Source: a bacterium (GTDB lineage: Bacteria > BMS3Abin14). From it: a stretch of 35,681 nt of DNA. The notes under the pieces are model-generated. The model saw only the letters and a list, made by a program, of their open reading frames with translations. It was not told the origin of the DNA and searched no databases. Location of the stretch: contig JARGFZ010000009.1 in NCBI GenBank assembly GCA_029210965.1, positions 57,907 to 93,587 on the forward strand, given 5' to 3'. The position numbers were made by a program, and so were the translations under genes. Positions 1 through 32,315 of this stretch are shown here, one piece after another (within the stretch, counting starts at the first letter, position 1; each line of letters opens with the position of its first letter).

Positions 1-64
1 ACAAATCAATGACATACAGTTCAAGTCATTGATTTGGGCACCCCACACGGGGTGCGTTGATGCT
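1..64 (-). repeat. Multi-hairpin dispersed repeat, copy A (partial, cut by window edge)
   Basis: Read on the minus strand this is the start of the element seen at 16718, 25086 and 28155: a GC hairpin (GCACCCC/GGGGTGC) followed by the AAATCAATGAC/GTCATTGATTT hairpin. The GC stem carries A-T where other copies carry G-C, a compensating change. It starts 14 bp or less after the rplU stop, so it sits where rpmA would usually begin. The rest lies outside the window. Confidence 0.8.
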
Positions 65-6690: not shown

Positions 6691-6797
6691 AACAATCAAT
6701 GACTCGCACTGTAAGTCATTGATTTGTAAGGAAAGGGAAAACGACGCTTTTCCCTTTCCGTGGAGCGAAAAATCCCGGATTGGATTTTTTGCGACTT
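6691..6797 (+). repeat. Multi-hairpin dispersed repeat, copy B (lacks the 5' part)
   Basis: Contains three of the hairpins of the family: ATCAATGACT/AGTCATTGAT, GGAAAGGGAAAA/TTTTCCCTTTCC and AAAAATCC/GGATTTTT, ending TTTTGCGACT. The GC hairpin and the 5' terminal repeat are absent. It lies between two minus-strand genes in the opposite orientation to them. Small open frames through it are products of the repeat. Confidence 0.88.
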
Positions 6798-6813
6798 TAT
6801 CAACAATGACCAG

Positions 6814-10406: not shown

Positions 10407-11966
10407 ATGGAACGTTCTTTCGGGAATTACATCCTCCACGAACGAGTGGGCATCGGAGGCATGGGGGAGGTCTTCAGGGCTACAAAACACGGACCTGACG
10501 GGTTCGAGGTACAGGTGGCCCTAAAAGTCATCCTTCCTCACCTTGCCAGGGAAGAGTCGTTCAAGAAGAGGTTCTCCCGCGAAGCAAACCTGGCAGCTTC
10601 CCTTCAACACCCGAATATAGTCAAGGTCAACGGTTTTGACATCATCGATGGAACCCCCGTTATCGAAATGGAATATGTACCGGGGGCTGATCTCCGGAGG
10701 ATCCTGCGCCTGTCTTCCCCCAGGGAAAAGCTTTCCCTGAATGAATCGATCGCGATCCTCTATGCAGTGGGAAGAGGGCTTAACCATGCACATCGTCAGG
10801 GGGACGGGGAAAAGGGTGAAGGAGGGATCATCCACTGCGATCTCAACCCTCACAACATTCTCATATCCACCCTGGGAGAGGTTAAAATCGCCGATTTCGG
10901 GATCGCACGCGCCATGCTCGGTGATATAGCCGCCAGCGCCACCATAAGGGGAAAGCTGGCCTATATGTCACCAGAACAGATGGAAGGCAGGGAACTGGAC
11001 CAGGCCACGGATCTTTTCTCCCTGGGCATCATCGCTTATCAGCTGTTATCGGGAAACCACCCTTTTGATCGGGGAAGCGAAGCCGCAACCATCTCTGCCA
11101 TCGGGAAGGCTGAACATATTCCTCTGCGCAACGCAGCCTCTGGGCTGCCCTCTTCCCTCTATGAACTGGTGGACCGGCTTCTCACGCTCGATCCGGCCGA
11201 AAGACCTCCCAACGCCGCTTCGGTCCTGGAAGCCCTGGAACCGCTTGTCCTGCCCTCTGCCGTCACTTCACTCGCCAGTCGGGTACGCTCCCTGGTGCCT
11301 GAAACACACCACGCAGCTGGTATCGTTTTAAACAGTTCACTGACGGCACCGACGATCCCGCGATCCAGAAGGTCACGTCTCTGGCCATATCTGGCCATGG
11401 GTACAGCAGGCATTGCTCTCGTCGCAGGTGTTTTTCTTCTCCCCACAGGCATGGAGTCGAACACCGCTCTCCCAATGCAAATAAAGGCTGTGGCGCCGGA
11501 ACCGGTCTCCACACCATCCCCCCAGCCTGAAGCACTTCCTCTCGAACACACCATAACTCTGGGATCAGTGCCTCCTGGAGCCAGCATCCTGGCTGACGGT
11601 ATCCCGGTTGGGACCACCCCGGTGTCGATCAGGAGCGGTTTTGATGACTCCACAGTGAACATGGAGGCCAGACTCTACGGATACAGGGATGAACCTTTTC
11701 GGATCCCACCCGGAGTGGATGAGCAGTACGTTGTCACCCTGGTCCCTTTGCCCACAGGCACCGTCAGGATCAGCGCCAACCCCTGGGCCAGGGTGATCTT
11801 CAGGGGCGAGGAAAAGGGCTATACACCCGTAACCATCCCGGACGTTCCCGTGGGAAAGCATACCTTTATCTTGAGTTACGATCCCCTGGGCGTGGAGCGG
11901 AAAGTCGGCAAGGAAGTCAGGGAGGGGATGAATACAGTCAGTGTGGATATGGGGGAAATTCCGTGA
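10407..11966 (+). CDS. Membrane-anchored Ser/Thr protein kinase with PEGA domains
   Basis: Hanks-type kinase of 519 residues. The N-terminal domain (10-275) has the Gly loop (GIGGMG, 15-20), the ATP lysine K40, the helix C glutamate E59 and DFG at 163-165. The catalytic loop reads H143-C-D-L-N-P-H-N150: the aspartate and final Asn are kept, but the usual Arg before the Asp is Cys and the usual Lys is Asn. A single transmembrane helix (about 325-345) follows, then two PEGA-like beta repeats (about 385-450 and 450-519), probably periplasmic. The kinase would thus sense or bind something at the cell wall. Catalytic-loop variants of this kind are known in other bacterial kinases, so activity is not excluded. 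No cognate phosphatase is nearby. Confidence 0.93.
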   Translation: MERSFGNYILHERVGIGGMGEVFRATKHGPDGFEVQVALKVILPHLAREESFKKRFSREANLAASLQHPNIVKVNGFDIIDGTPVIEMEYVPGADLRRILRLSSPREKLSLNESIAILYAVGRGLNHAHRQGDGEKGEGGIIHCDLNPHNILISTLGEVKIADFGIARAMLGDIAASATIRGKLAYMSPEQMEGRELDQATDLFSLGIIAYQLLSGNHPFDRGSEAATISAIGKAEHIPLRNAASGLPSSLYELVDRLLTLDPAERPPNAASVLEALEPLVLPSAVTSLASRVRSLVPETHHAAGIVLNSSLTAPTIPRSRRSRLWPYLAMGTAGIALVAGVFLLPTGMESNTALPMQIKAVAPEPVSTPSPQPEALPLEHTITLGSVPPGASILADGIPVGTTPVSIRSGFDDSTVNMEARLYGYRDEPFRIPPGVDEQYVVTLVPLPTGTVRISANPWARVIFRGEEKGYTPVTIPDVPVGKHTFILSYDPLGVERKVGKEVREGMNTVSVDMGEIP

Positions 11967-11981
11967 TCTGTGATCCGCGGT

Positions 11982-12058
11982 GCGTGAAGCGTGAAGCGTG
12001 AAGCGTGAAGCGTGAAGCGTGAAGCGTGAAGCGTGAAGCGTGAAGCGTGAAGCGTGAA
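11982..12058. repeat. Perfect 7-bp tandem array, 11 units of GCGTGAA
   Basis: Eleven identical GCGTGAA units without interruption begin 16 bp after the kinase stop codon. The array is in the kinase-to-ABC spacer. A 7-bp unit does not keep reading frame, and long perfect arrays usually vary in length by slippage. Confidence 0.97.
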
Positions 12059-15531: not shown

Positions 15532-16428
15532 ATGAATTATTGCACCCCCGAGATCAAACGGCCCTTCAAAGAAACCTTTTTAATCCTTGCATCCATTACC
15601 CTTGTACTGATCCTCGCGGGAGCCCTTCCCACTGCGGCAGAGCCTTACGGAGACCGCATACTGATGTTGTCCGAGGGGAAGGCTCTCGGCCTTGGACAGA
15701 TCCTGTCAGACCTGAAAGGGGCATCCCTTATCTTTGTGGGTGAGCAGCATGGTGATACAAGGCATCATGATCTCCAGTTGCGGGTTCTGAGAACACTTCA
15801 CAATTTGGGGATCCCTGTTGCTATTGGCCTGGAGATGTTCACCGCAAGAGACCAGGAGTACCTTGACTCCTGGATCCAGGGAACTCTTTCGGAAAAGGCG
15901 TTTCTTCGGGCCCACGAGAGAAATTGGGGGAATACCTGGCACCTGTACAGCCCCATCTATCGCTATGCCCGGGAAAAAAATATCCCCCTGGTTGGCCTGA
16001 ACGTTCCGGAGGAGATCACCACCCGGGTGGCCCGCCGGGGTTTTTCATCCCTATCTCCTGAACAGCGAGCCCAACTGCCTCTGGTCAGCTGCGATATTGA
16101 CGAAAAATACAGGTCCTTCATCCAGATGGCCCTGTCCGCCCATGAACCGTCAAAAAGCAGCAGCGCCTTCGAGAGTTTCTGCGAAGCACAACTCGTATGG
16201 GATACCACGATGGCCTTCAGACTGGTCCGGCACCTTGAACGCAACCCGGGCATAACCGTGATTGTAATGGCCGGCAATACCCACTCCTGGAGACCCGGTA
16301 TCCCGGAACAGCTCAGCCGGTTCGCAGACGGGATCGACTACCGGATCATCCTCCCGGAAATTCCTCCAGTACAGACACGACAGTTCATCGACAGTAGTGT
16401 GGCGGATTATCTGTGGCTGCTTCAGTAG
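15532..16428 (+). CDS. ChaN-like (Cofac_haem_bdg/DUF399) exported protein
   Basis: Protein of about 298 residues with an N-terminal signal peptide (hydrophobic ILASITLVLILAGAL, likely cut after PTAA). The family core is visible: LIFVGEQHGDTRHHDLQL, GLEMFTARDQEYLD, and MAGNTHSWRPG near the end. ChaN of Campylobacter binds haem and is linked to iron uptake; other relatives share a TIKI/erythromycin-esterase-like fold. Haem binding here is inference. I chose the ATG at 15532 because the residues after it form a clean signal peptide; an ATG at 15478 would add 18 residues. The stop codon lies inside the first unit of the 7-bp array that follows. Confidence 0.85.
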   Translation: MNYCTPEIKRPFKETFLILASITLVLILAGALPTAAEPYGDRILMLSEGKALGLGQILSDLKGASLIFVGEQHGDTRHHDLQLRVLRTLHNLGIPVAIGLEMFTARDQEYLDSWIQGTLSEKAFLRAHERNWGNTWHLYSPIYRYAREKNIPLVGLNVPEEITTRVARRGFSSLSPEQRAQLPLVSCDIDEKYRSFIQMALSAHEPSKSSSAFESFCEAQLVWDTTMAFRLVRHLERNPGITVIVMAGNTHSWRPGIPEQLSRFADGIDYRIILPEIPPVQTRQFIDSSVADYLWLLQ

Positions 16429-16507
16429 AACGTAGAACGTAGAACGTAGAACGTAGAACGTAGAACGTAGAACGTAGAACGTAGAACGTAGAACGTAGAA
16501 CGTAGAA
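16425..16507. repeat. Perfect 7-bp tandem array, 11.9 units of GTAGAAC
   Basis: Eleven GTAGAAC units plus a partial one, without errors. The first unit supplies the TAG stop codon (16426-16428) of the ChaN-like gene, so the array was expanded from, or grew into, the end of that gene. Confidence 0.97.
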
Positions 16508-16717
16508 AAAGTGTTGTTTTTTACCTACTATGGTTGTCAAGTGGTTTTGGGCCTTTATTCTGTGTTCCGTGTTCAGTTTTCTGTTTTAAATTTCCACCTT
16601 TCCTCATGACCCAGGTGGATCATATTATGAAGGATCTATTGGAAGACAGTCTGAAATAGGCGGTGATCGATGACCGGTAATCGGTAATCGGTATAAGATG
16701 AGAGTCGAGGATGAACA
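16508..16717. other. Spacer after the GTAGAAC array
   Basis: I see no gene. A short 7-bp-periodic stretch (CGGTAAT words) lies near 16672-16692. The rest is unassigned. Confidence 0.5.
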
Positions 16718-16874
16718 TTGATGACTTCGCAAAAAGTCATCAATGCGCCCCGCGCGGGGAGCCCAAATCAATGACTCACTCCGTAAGTCATTGATTTGTA
16801 AGGAAAGGGAAACGAACGCTTTTCCCTTTCCGTGGAGCGAAAAGTCCCGGATTGGACTTTTTGCGACTCGATCA
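16718..16874 (+). repeat. Multi-hairpin dispersed repeat, copy C (complete)
   Basis: Complete copy. Terminal inverted repeats are 12-bp perfect: TCGCAAAAAGTC (16727-16738) and GACTTTTTGCGA (16855-16866). Between them are a GC hairpin, the AAATCAATGAC/GTCATTGATTT hairpin, the GGAAAGGGAAA/TTTCCCTTTCC hairpin and the AAAAGTCC/GGACTTTT hairpin. It lies between the ChaN-like and LolA-like genes. Confidence 0.92.
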
Positions 16875-16897
16875 AAATTAGAAAGTGGAAAGTGGAA

Positions 16898-24499: not shown

Positions 24500-24570
24500 A
24501 TACCCCCTCATTTCCGCTATTCTAAACAGAATCAGGGAGGAAAAAAACCTTTTTTAACAATGTGTAGAAC

Positions 24571-24626
24571 CGGGGAGCGGGGAGCGGGGAGCGGGGAGCG
24601 GGGAGCGGGGAGCGGGGAGCGGGGAG
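24571..24626. repeat. Perfect 7-bp tandem array, 8 units of CGGGGAG
   Basis: Eight identical units upstream of the small membrane protein/sensor kinase operon, about 70 bp from the start codon on the minus strand, in the region where its promoter should lie. Length changes could alter promoter spacing or leader structure. Confidence 0.96.
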
Positions 24627-24692: not shown

Positions 24693-24900
24693 GGGATTGC
24701 TTCGGCATATACCATGGCCTCGCAATGACGCCGACCTGTGGCCGGAGTTGCGGGTTTCAGGTTTCAGGTTCCGGGTTCCGGGTTATGGGCCTTTTCGCCA
24801 AGTCGCTCAGTCGCCAAGTCGCAACGTTCTATCATCGGCTTCCCCCCGTGTCTCCGTGTCTCCGTGTCCCCGCGTCTCCGTGTCCTCGTGTCCTACCGCT
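24693..24900. repeat. Repeat module shared with 780-930, with 7- and 8-bp word arrays
   Basis: Starts with GGGATTGC...CCTCGCAATGACG, then CTGTGGCCGGAGTT, then GGTTTCA/GGTTCCG 7-bp words, then GGCCTTTTCG-CAAGTCGCTC. The same order with different numbers of 7-bp words occurs at about 800-925. A GTGTCTCC-type 8-bp array follows at 24845-24895. Confidence 0.75.
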
Positions 24901-24934: not shown

Positions 24935-25141
24935 ATGGATAGGGAGAGACCGGCAGCGGAGTGCACACCGTGCCTGAAGTGCCAGGGATCGGGTTACCAG
25001 GCCATGGGGTGCAACCTCTTTCCTTGTCCGGAATGCCACGGGAAGGGAGTCGCCGCGCCCGAAAGAATAGTCCAAAGTCCAACCTTGATGACTTCGCAAA
25101 AAGTCATCAATGCGCCCCGCGCGGGGCGCCCGAATCAATGA
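24935..25141 (+). CDS. Small protein with two CxxCxGxG zinc motifs
   Basis: Protein of 68 residues. Residues 12-40 hold CLKCQGSGYQ and CPECHGKG, two CxxCxGxG motifs like those of the DnaJ zinc finger and other small zinc-binding proteins. The C-terminal part from about residue 51 (MTSQKVINAPRAGRP) is translated from the 5' end of dispersed repeat copy D, so the natural C-terminus was probably lost or replaced when the repeat arrived. No ribosome binding site is obvious. Function is unknown. Confidence 0.55.
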   Translation: MDRERPAAECTPCLKCQGSGYQAMGCNLFPCPECHGKGVAAPERIVQSPTLMTSQKVINAPRAGRPNQ

Positions 25142-25236
25142 CTGCGGGTGTAAGTCATTGATTTGTGAGGAAAGGGAAAACCACGCTTTTCCCTTTCCGT
25201 GGAGCGAAAAGTCCCGGATTGGATTTTTTGCGACTC
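25086..25236 (+). repeat. Multi-hairpin dispersed repeat, copy D (complete)
   Basis: Complete copy with TCGCAAAAAGTC at 25094-25105 and GATTTTTTGCGA at 25222-25233 (one mismatch). Two stems contain G-T (G-U in RNA) pairs, CGAATCA/TGATTTG and AAAAGTCC/GGATTTTT, at positions that are A-T or G-C in other copies. Confidence 0.92.
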
Positions 25237-25240
25237 TGGT

Positions 25241-25641
25241 AACGTCCAAGGTCCAAAGTACCAGGTCCCAGAATTAAAACACTGTGGACCGTTTATTCAG
25301 CAGGCGAGGATAATACTGTTCCTTCAGATTAGAAGTTTTTCTCCGGTATCTTTCATAGCTTATTCACATCAGCTGGTCCTATCAAACCGACAAGACATCG
25401 ACCAACAGATTCATATCCATTCCCCTCTCCTGCATTAGCCCGCAACCAGTTTGCGGCAGGAGGAGCAGGGCTTATGGATCGAAGTACATTGACGAGACCC
25501 GGTTCCACGCCGATAGTGGGCCTGCGCAGACCGGGGGGCCTTCCCTGGATACCCTGGCGATGGATCAGAAGACGCTACTCTCCTGGAGCATGGGAAGGGC
25601 TTGCGTCCCTGTTTAATGGCTATCATTACATCCATTCCATT
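25241..25641. other. Spacer upstream of the YkgJ-like gene
   Basis: Starts with 7-bp-type words (GTCCAAG, GTCCAAA, near 25245-25275). I see no convincing gene or promoter. An AGGAGGAG site (about 25459-25466) precedes an in-frame ATG at 25474, see the next gene. Confidence 0.4.
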
Positions 25642-28154: not shown

Positions 28155-28280
28155 AGTCCGCGCCCCGAGGGGGGCGCCCGGATCAGTGACTGTCGATATA
28201 AGTCATTGATCCGTGAGGAAAGGGAAAACCACGCTTTTCCCTTTCCGAGGAGCAAAAAGCCGATAACGGACTTTTTGCGA
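28155..28280 (+). repeat. Multi-hairpin dispersed repeat, copy E (5' end diverged)
   Basis: GC hairpin GCGCCCC/GGGGCGC, then GGATCA...TGATCC (both arms changed relative to AAATCA/TGATTT), the GGAAAGGGAAAA hairpin and AAAAAGCCG/CGG-A-CTTTTT. It ends CTTTTTGCGA. It lies between the broken exporter and tRNA-Ala. Confidence 0.9.
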
Positions 28281-28396
28281 CCCTGTCAAAAGTTGATGGA
28301 AGGGATGGGAGCTTGCTTTGCTCGAGTTCCGTGTTCCAGGTTCCAGGTTAAATATTCCAATCTTTAAACTTCAGACGCAGCCTGTCTGGTGCAGCC

Positions 28397-30473: not shown

Positions 30474-30764
30474 ATGAAGAAGCGTCGCCGCAAGTTCACC
30501 AAGGATTTCAAGGCGAAGGTCGCCTTAGAGGCAATCAAGGGTCAGCGTCCGATCAACGAGTTGGCCCAGGAATTTGGAGTTCAGCCTAACCAGATCGGCA
30601 TCTGGAAGAAGCAGTTATTAGAGGCCGCCCCGGAGGTCTTCAGTCGAGGCAAGGACCGTGATGCCGAGGCTGCTGAGGTTGAACGGGACCGTCTCTATCG
30701 TAAAGTAGGCCAGCTTCAGGTGGAGGTGGACTGGCTTAAAAAAAAGACCGGTCATCTGGACTGA
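30474..30764 (+). CDS. IS3 element 2 transposase OrfA
   Basis: 96 residues with a helix-turn-helix (INELAQEFGVQPNQIGIWKKQ) and a coiled-coil-like C-terminus. An A8-G run (30738-30746) read as AAA-AAA-AAG lies immediately after a TAA in the -1 frame (30737), so -1 frameshifting into orfB is expected. Confidence 0.94.
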   Translation: MKKRRRKFTKDFKAKVALEAIKGQRPINELAQEFGVQPNQIGIWKKQLLEAAPEVFSRGKDRDAEAAEVERDRLYRKVGQLQVEVDWLKKKTGHLD

Positions 30765-30766
30765 CG

Positions 30767-31615
30767 GTGCCTGCGAAGCGTGCCATGGTTGAGCCCGACA
30801 ACCCTGTCCTCAGCGTCCGCCGCCAATGTGATCTTCTCGGTTTGTCACGGTCGAGCTATTATCGGTCGCCGGTATTCGAGACACAGGAGACCCTGAAACT
30901 CATGCGGATGATAGACGAGGAGTATACGCGTCATCCGTTCTACGGGAGCCGGAAGATCCGGGACTACCTTTTCCGCAAGGGGCACAAGGTTAACCGGAAG
31001 CGCATCCAGCGCCTGATGCGTCTCATGGGGTTGGAATCTCTCGCGCCCCGTAAGCGTACCAGCATTCCGCATCCTGACCACAAGGTGTATCCGTACCTGC
31101 TGCGCGGGTTGGATATCAATCATGCTGACCAGGTTTGGTGCAGCGACATCACGTACATTCCCATGGCGCATGGATTTGTGTACCTGACGGTGGTGATGGA
31201 TTGGTACAGCCGTTATGTGCTCTCCTGGGAGGTGTCGGTGACGATGGACGACAGCTTCTGTGTAAGCGCGCTGGAACGGGCTCTCAGGCGTTATCCCGGG
31301 CCCGAGATATTCAACACGGATCAAGGCTCCCAGTTCACAGGCACGGCTTTCACCGATGTGCTCAAGGACCACGAGATAAAGACCAGCATGGATGGCAAGG
31401 GCAGGGCAACGGACAACATCATGGTCGAACGGTTATGGCGCAGTGTGAAGTACGAGGATGTGTACCTGAAGGATTACGAGACAATGGGGGATCTCATTGC
31501 CGGGCTGCGGGAATACTTCGAGTTCTACAACAACGAACGGCCTCACCAGTCTTTCGGAGTAAGAACCTCGGCTGAAGTGTACCAGGGCATCTCAATGTTC
31601 AAGGAGGCGGCATGA
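30767..31615 (+). CDS. IS3 element 2 transposase OrfB (complete)
   Basis: 282 residues with an N-terminal HTH_21 part and an integrase core. DDE residues are present: Asp in WCSDITYIPM, Asp in NTDQGSQFT and Glu in MVERLWRSVKYE, the last spaced as in D-D-35-E enzymes. It starts with GTG at 30767 or, more likely, is made as an OrfAB fusion through the A8-G frameshift site. Appears functional. Confidence 0.95.
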   Translation: MPAKRAMVEPDNPVLSVRRQCDLLGLSRSSYYRSPVFETQETLKLMRMIDEEYTRHPFYGSRKIRDYLFRKGHKVNRKRIQRLMRLMGLESLAPRKRTSIPHPDHKVYPYLLRGLDINHADQVWCSDITYIPMAHGFVYLTVVMDWYSRYVLSWEVSVTMDDSFCVSALERALRRYPGPEIFNTDQGSQFTGTAFTDVLKDHEIKTSMDGKGRATDNIMVERLWRSVKYEDVYLKDYETMGDLIAGLREYFEFYNNERPHQSFGVRTSAEVYQGISMFKEAA

Positions 31616-31621
31616 GAAGCG

Positions 31622-31765
31622 CTCCGCCTCTTACACAGAGAAAATACACCTTAAGTTCAAAGGAAAGTGGTCTTGACATTGGGGTCCACTGCACTCCGCC
31701 TCTTACACGGAGAGGATACACCTTAAGTTCAAAGGAAAGTGGTCTTGACATTGGGGTCCACTGCA
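31622..31765 (+). repeat. Tandem duplication of 72 bp including the IS3 right end
   Basis: 31622-31693 and 31694-31765 are identical except for three A/G differences near the left of each unit. Each unit carries GGGGTCCACT, so the element has two alternative right ends. Confidence 0.93.
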
Positions 31766-31860: not shown

Positions 31861-32189
31861 CATCAACGCGCCCCGGACGGGGCGCCCGGATCAATGAGAA
31901 GCCGCGCCCGGGAGAGGCGCCCGGATCAATGAACAGCCGCGCCTGGGAGAGGCGCCCGGATCGAGTGCCAAAGGCTGTGTGTTCGATCCGTGAGGGAACC
32001 GAAAACCACGCTTTTCGGTTCCCGTTGAGCCAAAGTCTCGCACAGACTTTGGTGATATATAAGTACCGTGAGGAAAGTGAAAACCACGCTTTTCCCTTTC
32101 CGTGGAGCAAAAAGCCGATAACGGACTTTTTGCGACCCTGTCAATATTAGTGGGTCACGAAAAGTCCCGGATTGGACTTTTTGCGACTC
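31861..32189 (+). repeat. Multi-hairpin dispersed repeat, compound copy F
   Basis: Three GC-hairpin units in a row (about 35 bp each, from 31861), then GGATCGA/TCGATCC (31958-31964 and 31983-31989), GGGAACCGAAAA/TTTTCGGTTCCC (31994-32005 and 32012-32023) and CAAAGTCT/AGACTTTG (32031-32038 and 32044-32051). A second set follows: GGAAAGTGAAAA hairpin, AAAAAGCCG hairpin and AAAAGTCC/GGACTTTT, ending TTTTTGCGACT. Two copies appear joined, the first with a differently built but still paired set of stems. Confidence 0.9.
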
Positions 32190-32315
32190 TATCTATAGTT
32201 AAACCAGGTCTATAATCCTTCATGGTTTTTCACCAGTTTTCATCCCATGTTCAGGTAATTTTCGTGCCACCGATTTTGTTCCAGCCCAGGAAAACTTTCG
32301 GGTACAATCATCTTT

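Follow-up and report, generated by a model that had tools for sequence, protein, structure and literature searches.

BOX, ERIC, and Correia are small, intergenic, strongly folding noncoding elements that live in other hosts and have other transposase partners where these are known. The same description fits QMITE of another host (PMC10969869), and the repeat family analyzed here shares this form with all four. Chunjie, a MITE of Geobacter uraniireducens, measures 178 to 235 bp, has conserved TIRs and direct repeats, occurs in many intergenic copies, and sits in an operon (PMC10969869). It is likened to our family by that description, not by TIR sequence. Another close described system is archaeal. 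In Methanosarcina acetivorans, ISMac2-partnered MITEs of 160 bp carry 26-bp inverted repeats and 4-bp direct repeats (PMC3852290, Table 4). They resemble the family described here in approximate size, in the 4-bp repeats, and in having an IS1182-family partner, but there are 14 copies, and their description in that source reports no interior covariation. ISPse1, an IS1182-family element of Paracoccus (about 1.65 kb, with 16-bp ends), makes a 4-bp target duplication like the one seen here (PMC3281130). However, ISPse1 is autonomous, and it is set beside our family by description rather than by end sequence. IS1182-partnered MITEs with 4-bp duplications are therefore already known, and the present family is a new one. 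Text searches of the literature turned up no description, whether for Desulfo- MITEs or for its TIR sequence. Two features are unusual here: a wide distribution in which the hairpin interiors are unrelated, and covariation that survives correction for the tree.

The window that we analyzed is the whole 35,681-bp stretch of contig JARGFZ010000009.1. A sequence-only reading of it had described a family of intergenic multihairpin elements at six places, and nhmmer and blastn found the element at all six (Table 1), with zero matches in a shuffled window. The stem variants that it described were also borne out, as were its G-T pairs in copy D. Copy C alone combines full length with two clean TIRs. 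The multihairpin form of the family held up, but the chain is not limited to the four hairpins that had been proposed. Copy C has five local hairpins, because H0 at the left end had been overlooked. It folds with a z of −7.8 (DNA) or −8.1 (RNA), and 0 of 200 shuffles folded as well. The TIRs and the target-site duplications had gone unnoticed too and, together with the fifth hairpin, they change the interpretation. We consider it highly probable that the repeats are a new family of gene-less MITEs, moved by an IS1182-like DDE transposase, with interior hairpins that are held by pairing.

Table 1. Parts of copy C and the six element copies, in window positions
Feature	Position	Strand	Description
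Target-site duplication, left half	16715..16718	.	ACAT
Left TIR	16719..16738	+	TGATGACTTCGCAAAAAGTC
Hairpin H0	16719..16742	+	TGATGACTT/AAGTCATCA; overlaps left TIR; covariation not beyond null
Hairpin H1 (GC hairpin)	16745..16762	+	Weak covariation
Hairpin H2	16764..16798	+	CAAATCAATGACT/AGTCATTGATTTG; covaries
Hairpin H3	16802..16831	+	GGAAAGGGAAA/TTTCCCTTTCC; clearest covariation of the hairpins
Hairpin H4	16840..16861	+	AAAAGTCC/GGACTTTT; overlaps right TIR; covariation not beyond null
Right TIR	16855..16874	-	TGATCGAGTCGCAAAAAGTC, reverse complement
Target-site duplication, right half	16875..16878	.	AAAT; matches left half ACAT at 3/4
Copy A	1..62	-	Truncated, H2 and H1; spacer downstream of rplU; runs on into N gap beyond window
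Copy B	6694..6802	+	Without left third
Copy C	16719..16874	+	Full-length 156-bp MITE; blastn 96% to consensus, TIR to TIR
Copy D	25086..25241	+	Near full length; diverged right end (TCTGGTA)
Copy E	28159..28288	+	Left 25 bp missing
Copy F	31861..32194	+	Composite, at least 4 element fragments

The 20-bp TIR pattern of the element, TGATNNNNTCGCAAAAAGTC, had 293 matches with at most two mismatches in the 3.19-Mb genome, whereas the reversed control pattern had 1. These TIR ends correspond to about 147 copies. Therefore, the earlier count of at least six was real as far as it went but a large understatement. The element is noncoding and, like other MITEs, short (<500 bp), with a modal length of 155 to 156 bp. 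Copies were gathered by search and by stretches of genome, and they are a sample rather than an exhaustive set. When they were aligned with their flanks, the target duplication proved to be exactly 4 bp and mostly A-N-N-T. It was exact in 111 of 276 candidates, compared with a mean of 7.8 and a maximum of 16 in 1,000 shuffles of the right flanks, although 47- to 48-bp candidates enter this set once per orientation and some of its short members are false. The neighboring duplication lengths 3 and 5 gave only 2 and 11 matches among the same candidates. In the clean set, which consists of 147 full-length copies and spans 11 genomes, an exact 4-bp duplication was present in 79, and in 42 of the 55 that belong to the window's genome.

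Insertion is polymorphic at orthologous sites, as judged from two loci. At the first, G001, a genome of the same genus in which the neighboring gene is 94% identical, lacks copy B, and so do the other relatives that we examined. At the second, the rplU-rpmA spacer, element sequence is present in the window's genome (G000) and in G002, whereas G005 and G010 have short remnants and G003, G004, G006, G008, and G009 have none. Therefore, insertions are tolerated inside this conserved operon. The elements at L377 and L388 are in tandem; those of G000 follow rplU, and those of G002 separate rplU from rpmA.

A search of transposase loci for the TIR yielded a 1,667-bp element in G006 (L233:1240-2906) that has a 520-amino-acid reading frame and TIR-like ends and directly adjoins a MITE. 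Searching with its protein revealed further fragments in G005, G009, and G010, and in G006, G009, and G010 a TIR-like sequence precedes the transposase start by about 87 bp. The G006 reading frame is still open, but the protein is without roughly 80 to 90 residues, including the YRWRAGVEAT motif that we take to carry the catalytic glutamate. With this region deleted, no intact partner is seen in the family. Outside the family, six full-length IS1182-like ISs from six genomes were all bounded by the TIR (1,893 to 1,908 bp), and IS1182-like loci contained 39 TIR matches (reversed control, 0). The partner proteins score over the cutoffs for PF05598, PF13751, and PF01609 (DUF772 and transposase DDE domain). 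Their best NCBIfam model is IS1182 (NF033551), but at 116 to 160 bits they are below its equivalog cutoff of 270, and so we refer to them as IS1182-like rather than IS1182.

The length of the partner ISs fits the IS1182 range (about 1.6 to 1.9 kb), and one of seven has a 4-bp duplication (L351, AACT), as the MITEs do. L348 has a 5-bp duplication. Some results count against the partnership: five of the seven full-length ISs are without an intact target duplication, the partner proteins fall short of the IS1182 cutoff, the protein search had no transposase match in the window's genome, and among 50 genomes of other families with such MITEs only 13 had one, leaving 37 without. Also, the MITE interior has no visible derivation from IS sequence, so that direct deletion is at most a possible origin. 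On balance, the IS1182-like ISs with the same TIRs are the likely autonomous partner, and from these shared ends we infer that the MITE would have been mobilized in trans by their transposase. The enzyme is no longer found in the window's genome, so the copies there are now probably immobile relics. Other candidates were rejected. The rve (IS3/IS21/IS481), DDE_Tnp_1, and Y1 families were each not present in all MITE-bearing genomes. The IS3-type element at 30474-31615 (orfA, 30474-30764; orfB, 30767-31615) adjoins copy F and has no MITE TIR at either end; a 72-bp tandem duplication (31619-31762) directly follows it. Long TIR spacings at L092, L102, L106, and L168 enclose ordinary genes and no transposase.

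The sequence-only reading had also claimed that the stems change in both arms together. We placed 147 full-length copies from 11 genomes in one orientation, aligned them, built a tree with FastTree, and compared pair scores with two tree-aware nulls of 200 runs each. Null 1 keeps the changes per branch and randomizes the columns, and null 2 keeps the changes per column and randomizes the branches; recombination between copies is outside both models. The summed score for H0 to H4 was 541, compared with 152 ± 61 (maximum, 385) for null 1 and 65 ± 42 (maximum, 227) for null 2, and it was 8 to 131 when the partners were slid. The signal comes from H1 to H3, with H2 and H3 above every null run and H1 above most (P = 0.01, null 2), whereas H0, H4, and TIR-TIR pairing scored within both nulls. 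Only one single pair, in H3, reached an E value of <0.05, and it did so under null 1 only. The covariation of H1 to H3 is genuine under two tree-aware nulls, which bears out the claim. A lack of excess covariation, or copies in this window only, had been named as grounds for giving it up, and neither was found. Because H1 to H3 covary and H0, H4, and the TIRs do not, it is sequence that is conserved at the ends and pairing that is conserved in the interior. The top-scoring column pair overall is in the H3 loop (alignment columns 100 and 104, C-G or T-A), which suggests a further closing pair that leaves a bulge.

In the phylum of the window's genome, we searched 12 genomes, all of one family. 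The element was in 10 of the 11 others, and in 0 of 49 genomes of other families at the search sensitivity used. When species-representative genomes were scanned with a looser TIR, TTGATGRMYTCGYAAAAAGTC, it matched in at least 118 stretches. Among the matches listed, most are Desulfobacterota and a few are labelled Nitrospirae or Neomarinimicrobiota. The elements at these loci are mostly 95 to 325 bp, with 4-bp duplications like those of the window family. Their interiors had no clear match to the window family interior, and most are strong folders (median z of −4.4, n = 68, versus −0.3 for 61 random segments). By eye, several of these interiors resemble other common palindromic repeats, and the same-TIR elements at L094, L117, L122, L131, L173, and L205 have interiors of this sort (GTCATTCCGGCGAAAGCCGGAATCCAG and similar). 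Between the same TIRs, these other genomes appear to carry other repeats as cargo. We tentatively propose that, across at least two phyla, one transposase system may have repeatedly joined protein-recognized ends to unrelated interiors, and that a hairpin interior as such, whatever its sequence, might be needed for spread or tolerance. If so, structure would be the trait under selection in a DNA parasite that carries no gene. Ends, a target rule, and a candidate enzyme are now supplied for a MITE system widespread in Desulfobacterota, and the need of a hairpin interior for mobility becomes a directly testable question.

In the mechanism that we favor, an IS1182-like DDE transposase would have recognized the element by its 20-bp TIRs and integrated it, mostly at A-N-N-T sites, giving the 4-bp duplication. 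Protein recognition would fix the sequence of the ends, and H1 to H3 would be held by base pairing, not by sequence, most likely at the DNA level. We infer DNA-level upkeep as the cause of the covariation, whether by selection, at the level of the element, for an interior that forms hairpins or by hairpin-templated repair together with whole-module exchange. There is not quite an even chance that the MITE is as described and that its covariation arose solely from hairpin-templated (quasipalindrome) repair and hairpin swapping, with no structural selection. Templated repair is a known mutational mechanism, 36 double changes map to single branches, and recombination between copies does occur, with modules exchanged in the composite copies F and L224. 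However, repair and swapping should have made H0 and H4 covary too, which they do not (TIR recognition may fix them), and hairpin interiors recur among the unrelated interiors of the looser-TIR elements.

The sequence-only reading had ascribed the covarying stems to selection on RNA or on cruciform structure. Covariation is commonly read as strong evidence for functional RNA, and that of H1 to H3, which goes beyond phylogeny, and the strong folds would both suit a structured or cis-regulatory RNA family under host selection. Changes reconstructed from the paired state gave 108 G-T and 78 A-C mismatches (P = 0.03). The G-T excess is located in H2 (40:15), which would also suit an RNA, but mismatch types are balanced without it (68 G-T to 63 A-C; P = 0.73). 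The elements are intergenic (3 of 129 are inside a long reading frame). Their orientation relative to tandem genes is random (40:39), and they are not enriched where genes converge or at gene 3′ ends, with genes defined by a simple rule (longest ORF). Around copy C, no promoter- or terminator-like site was predicted, and a search of the window against Rfam matched only a tRNA. The elements may still be transcribed, but none of these results indicates a strand-specific RNA. RNA function also fits poorly with mobile elements that have target duplications and with the unrelated interiors of same-ended elements in other lineages. Therefore, with random orientation and near-balanced mismatches, a host RNA function is unsupported and we consider it improbable. 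The cruciform half of the earlier proposal fares better: DNA structure is possible, and the interior pairing is probably maintained at the DNA level. Tree-corrected covariation in randomly oriented mobile DNA makes this a warning case for RNA discovery pipelines.

A further reading, in which a REP-associated Y1 transposase (RAYT) mobilized REP/BIME-type palindromes, is very unlikely. Even though the elements are intergenic, palindromic, high in copy number, and mosaic in the composites, and several of the genomes have Y1 genes, the 4-bp target duplications already contradict it (Y1 transposition is not known to leave them), the TIRs are those of DDE insertion sequences instead, and no Y1 gene was found in MITE-bearing G001, G008, G009, and G011, whereas MITE-free G003 has one.

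The window contains other repeats. At the very end of the contig (34087-35681), a 759-bp unit occurs twice head to tail, followed by the beginning of a third copy. The 300-bp and 77-bp stretches compared between units are 100% identical, and each unit has a 126-amino-acid reading frame. This tandem repeat is possibly an assembly effect. Intergenic arrays of 7- or 8-base units (CGTGAAG, GTAGAAC, GGGGAGC, and CTCCGTGT) are located at 11962-12058, 16425-16520, 24564-24625, and 24836-24894.
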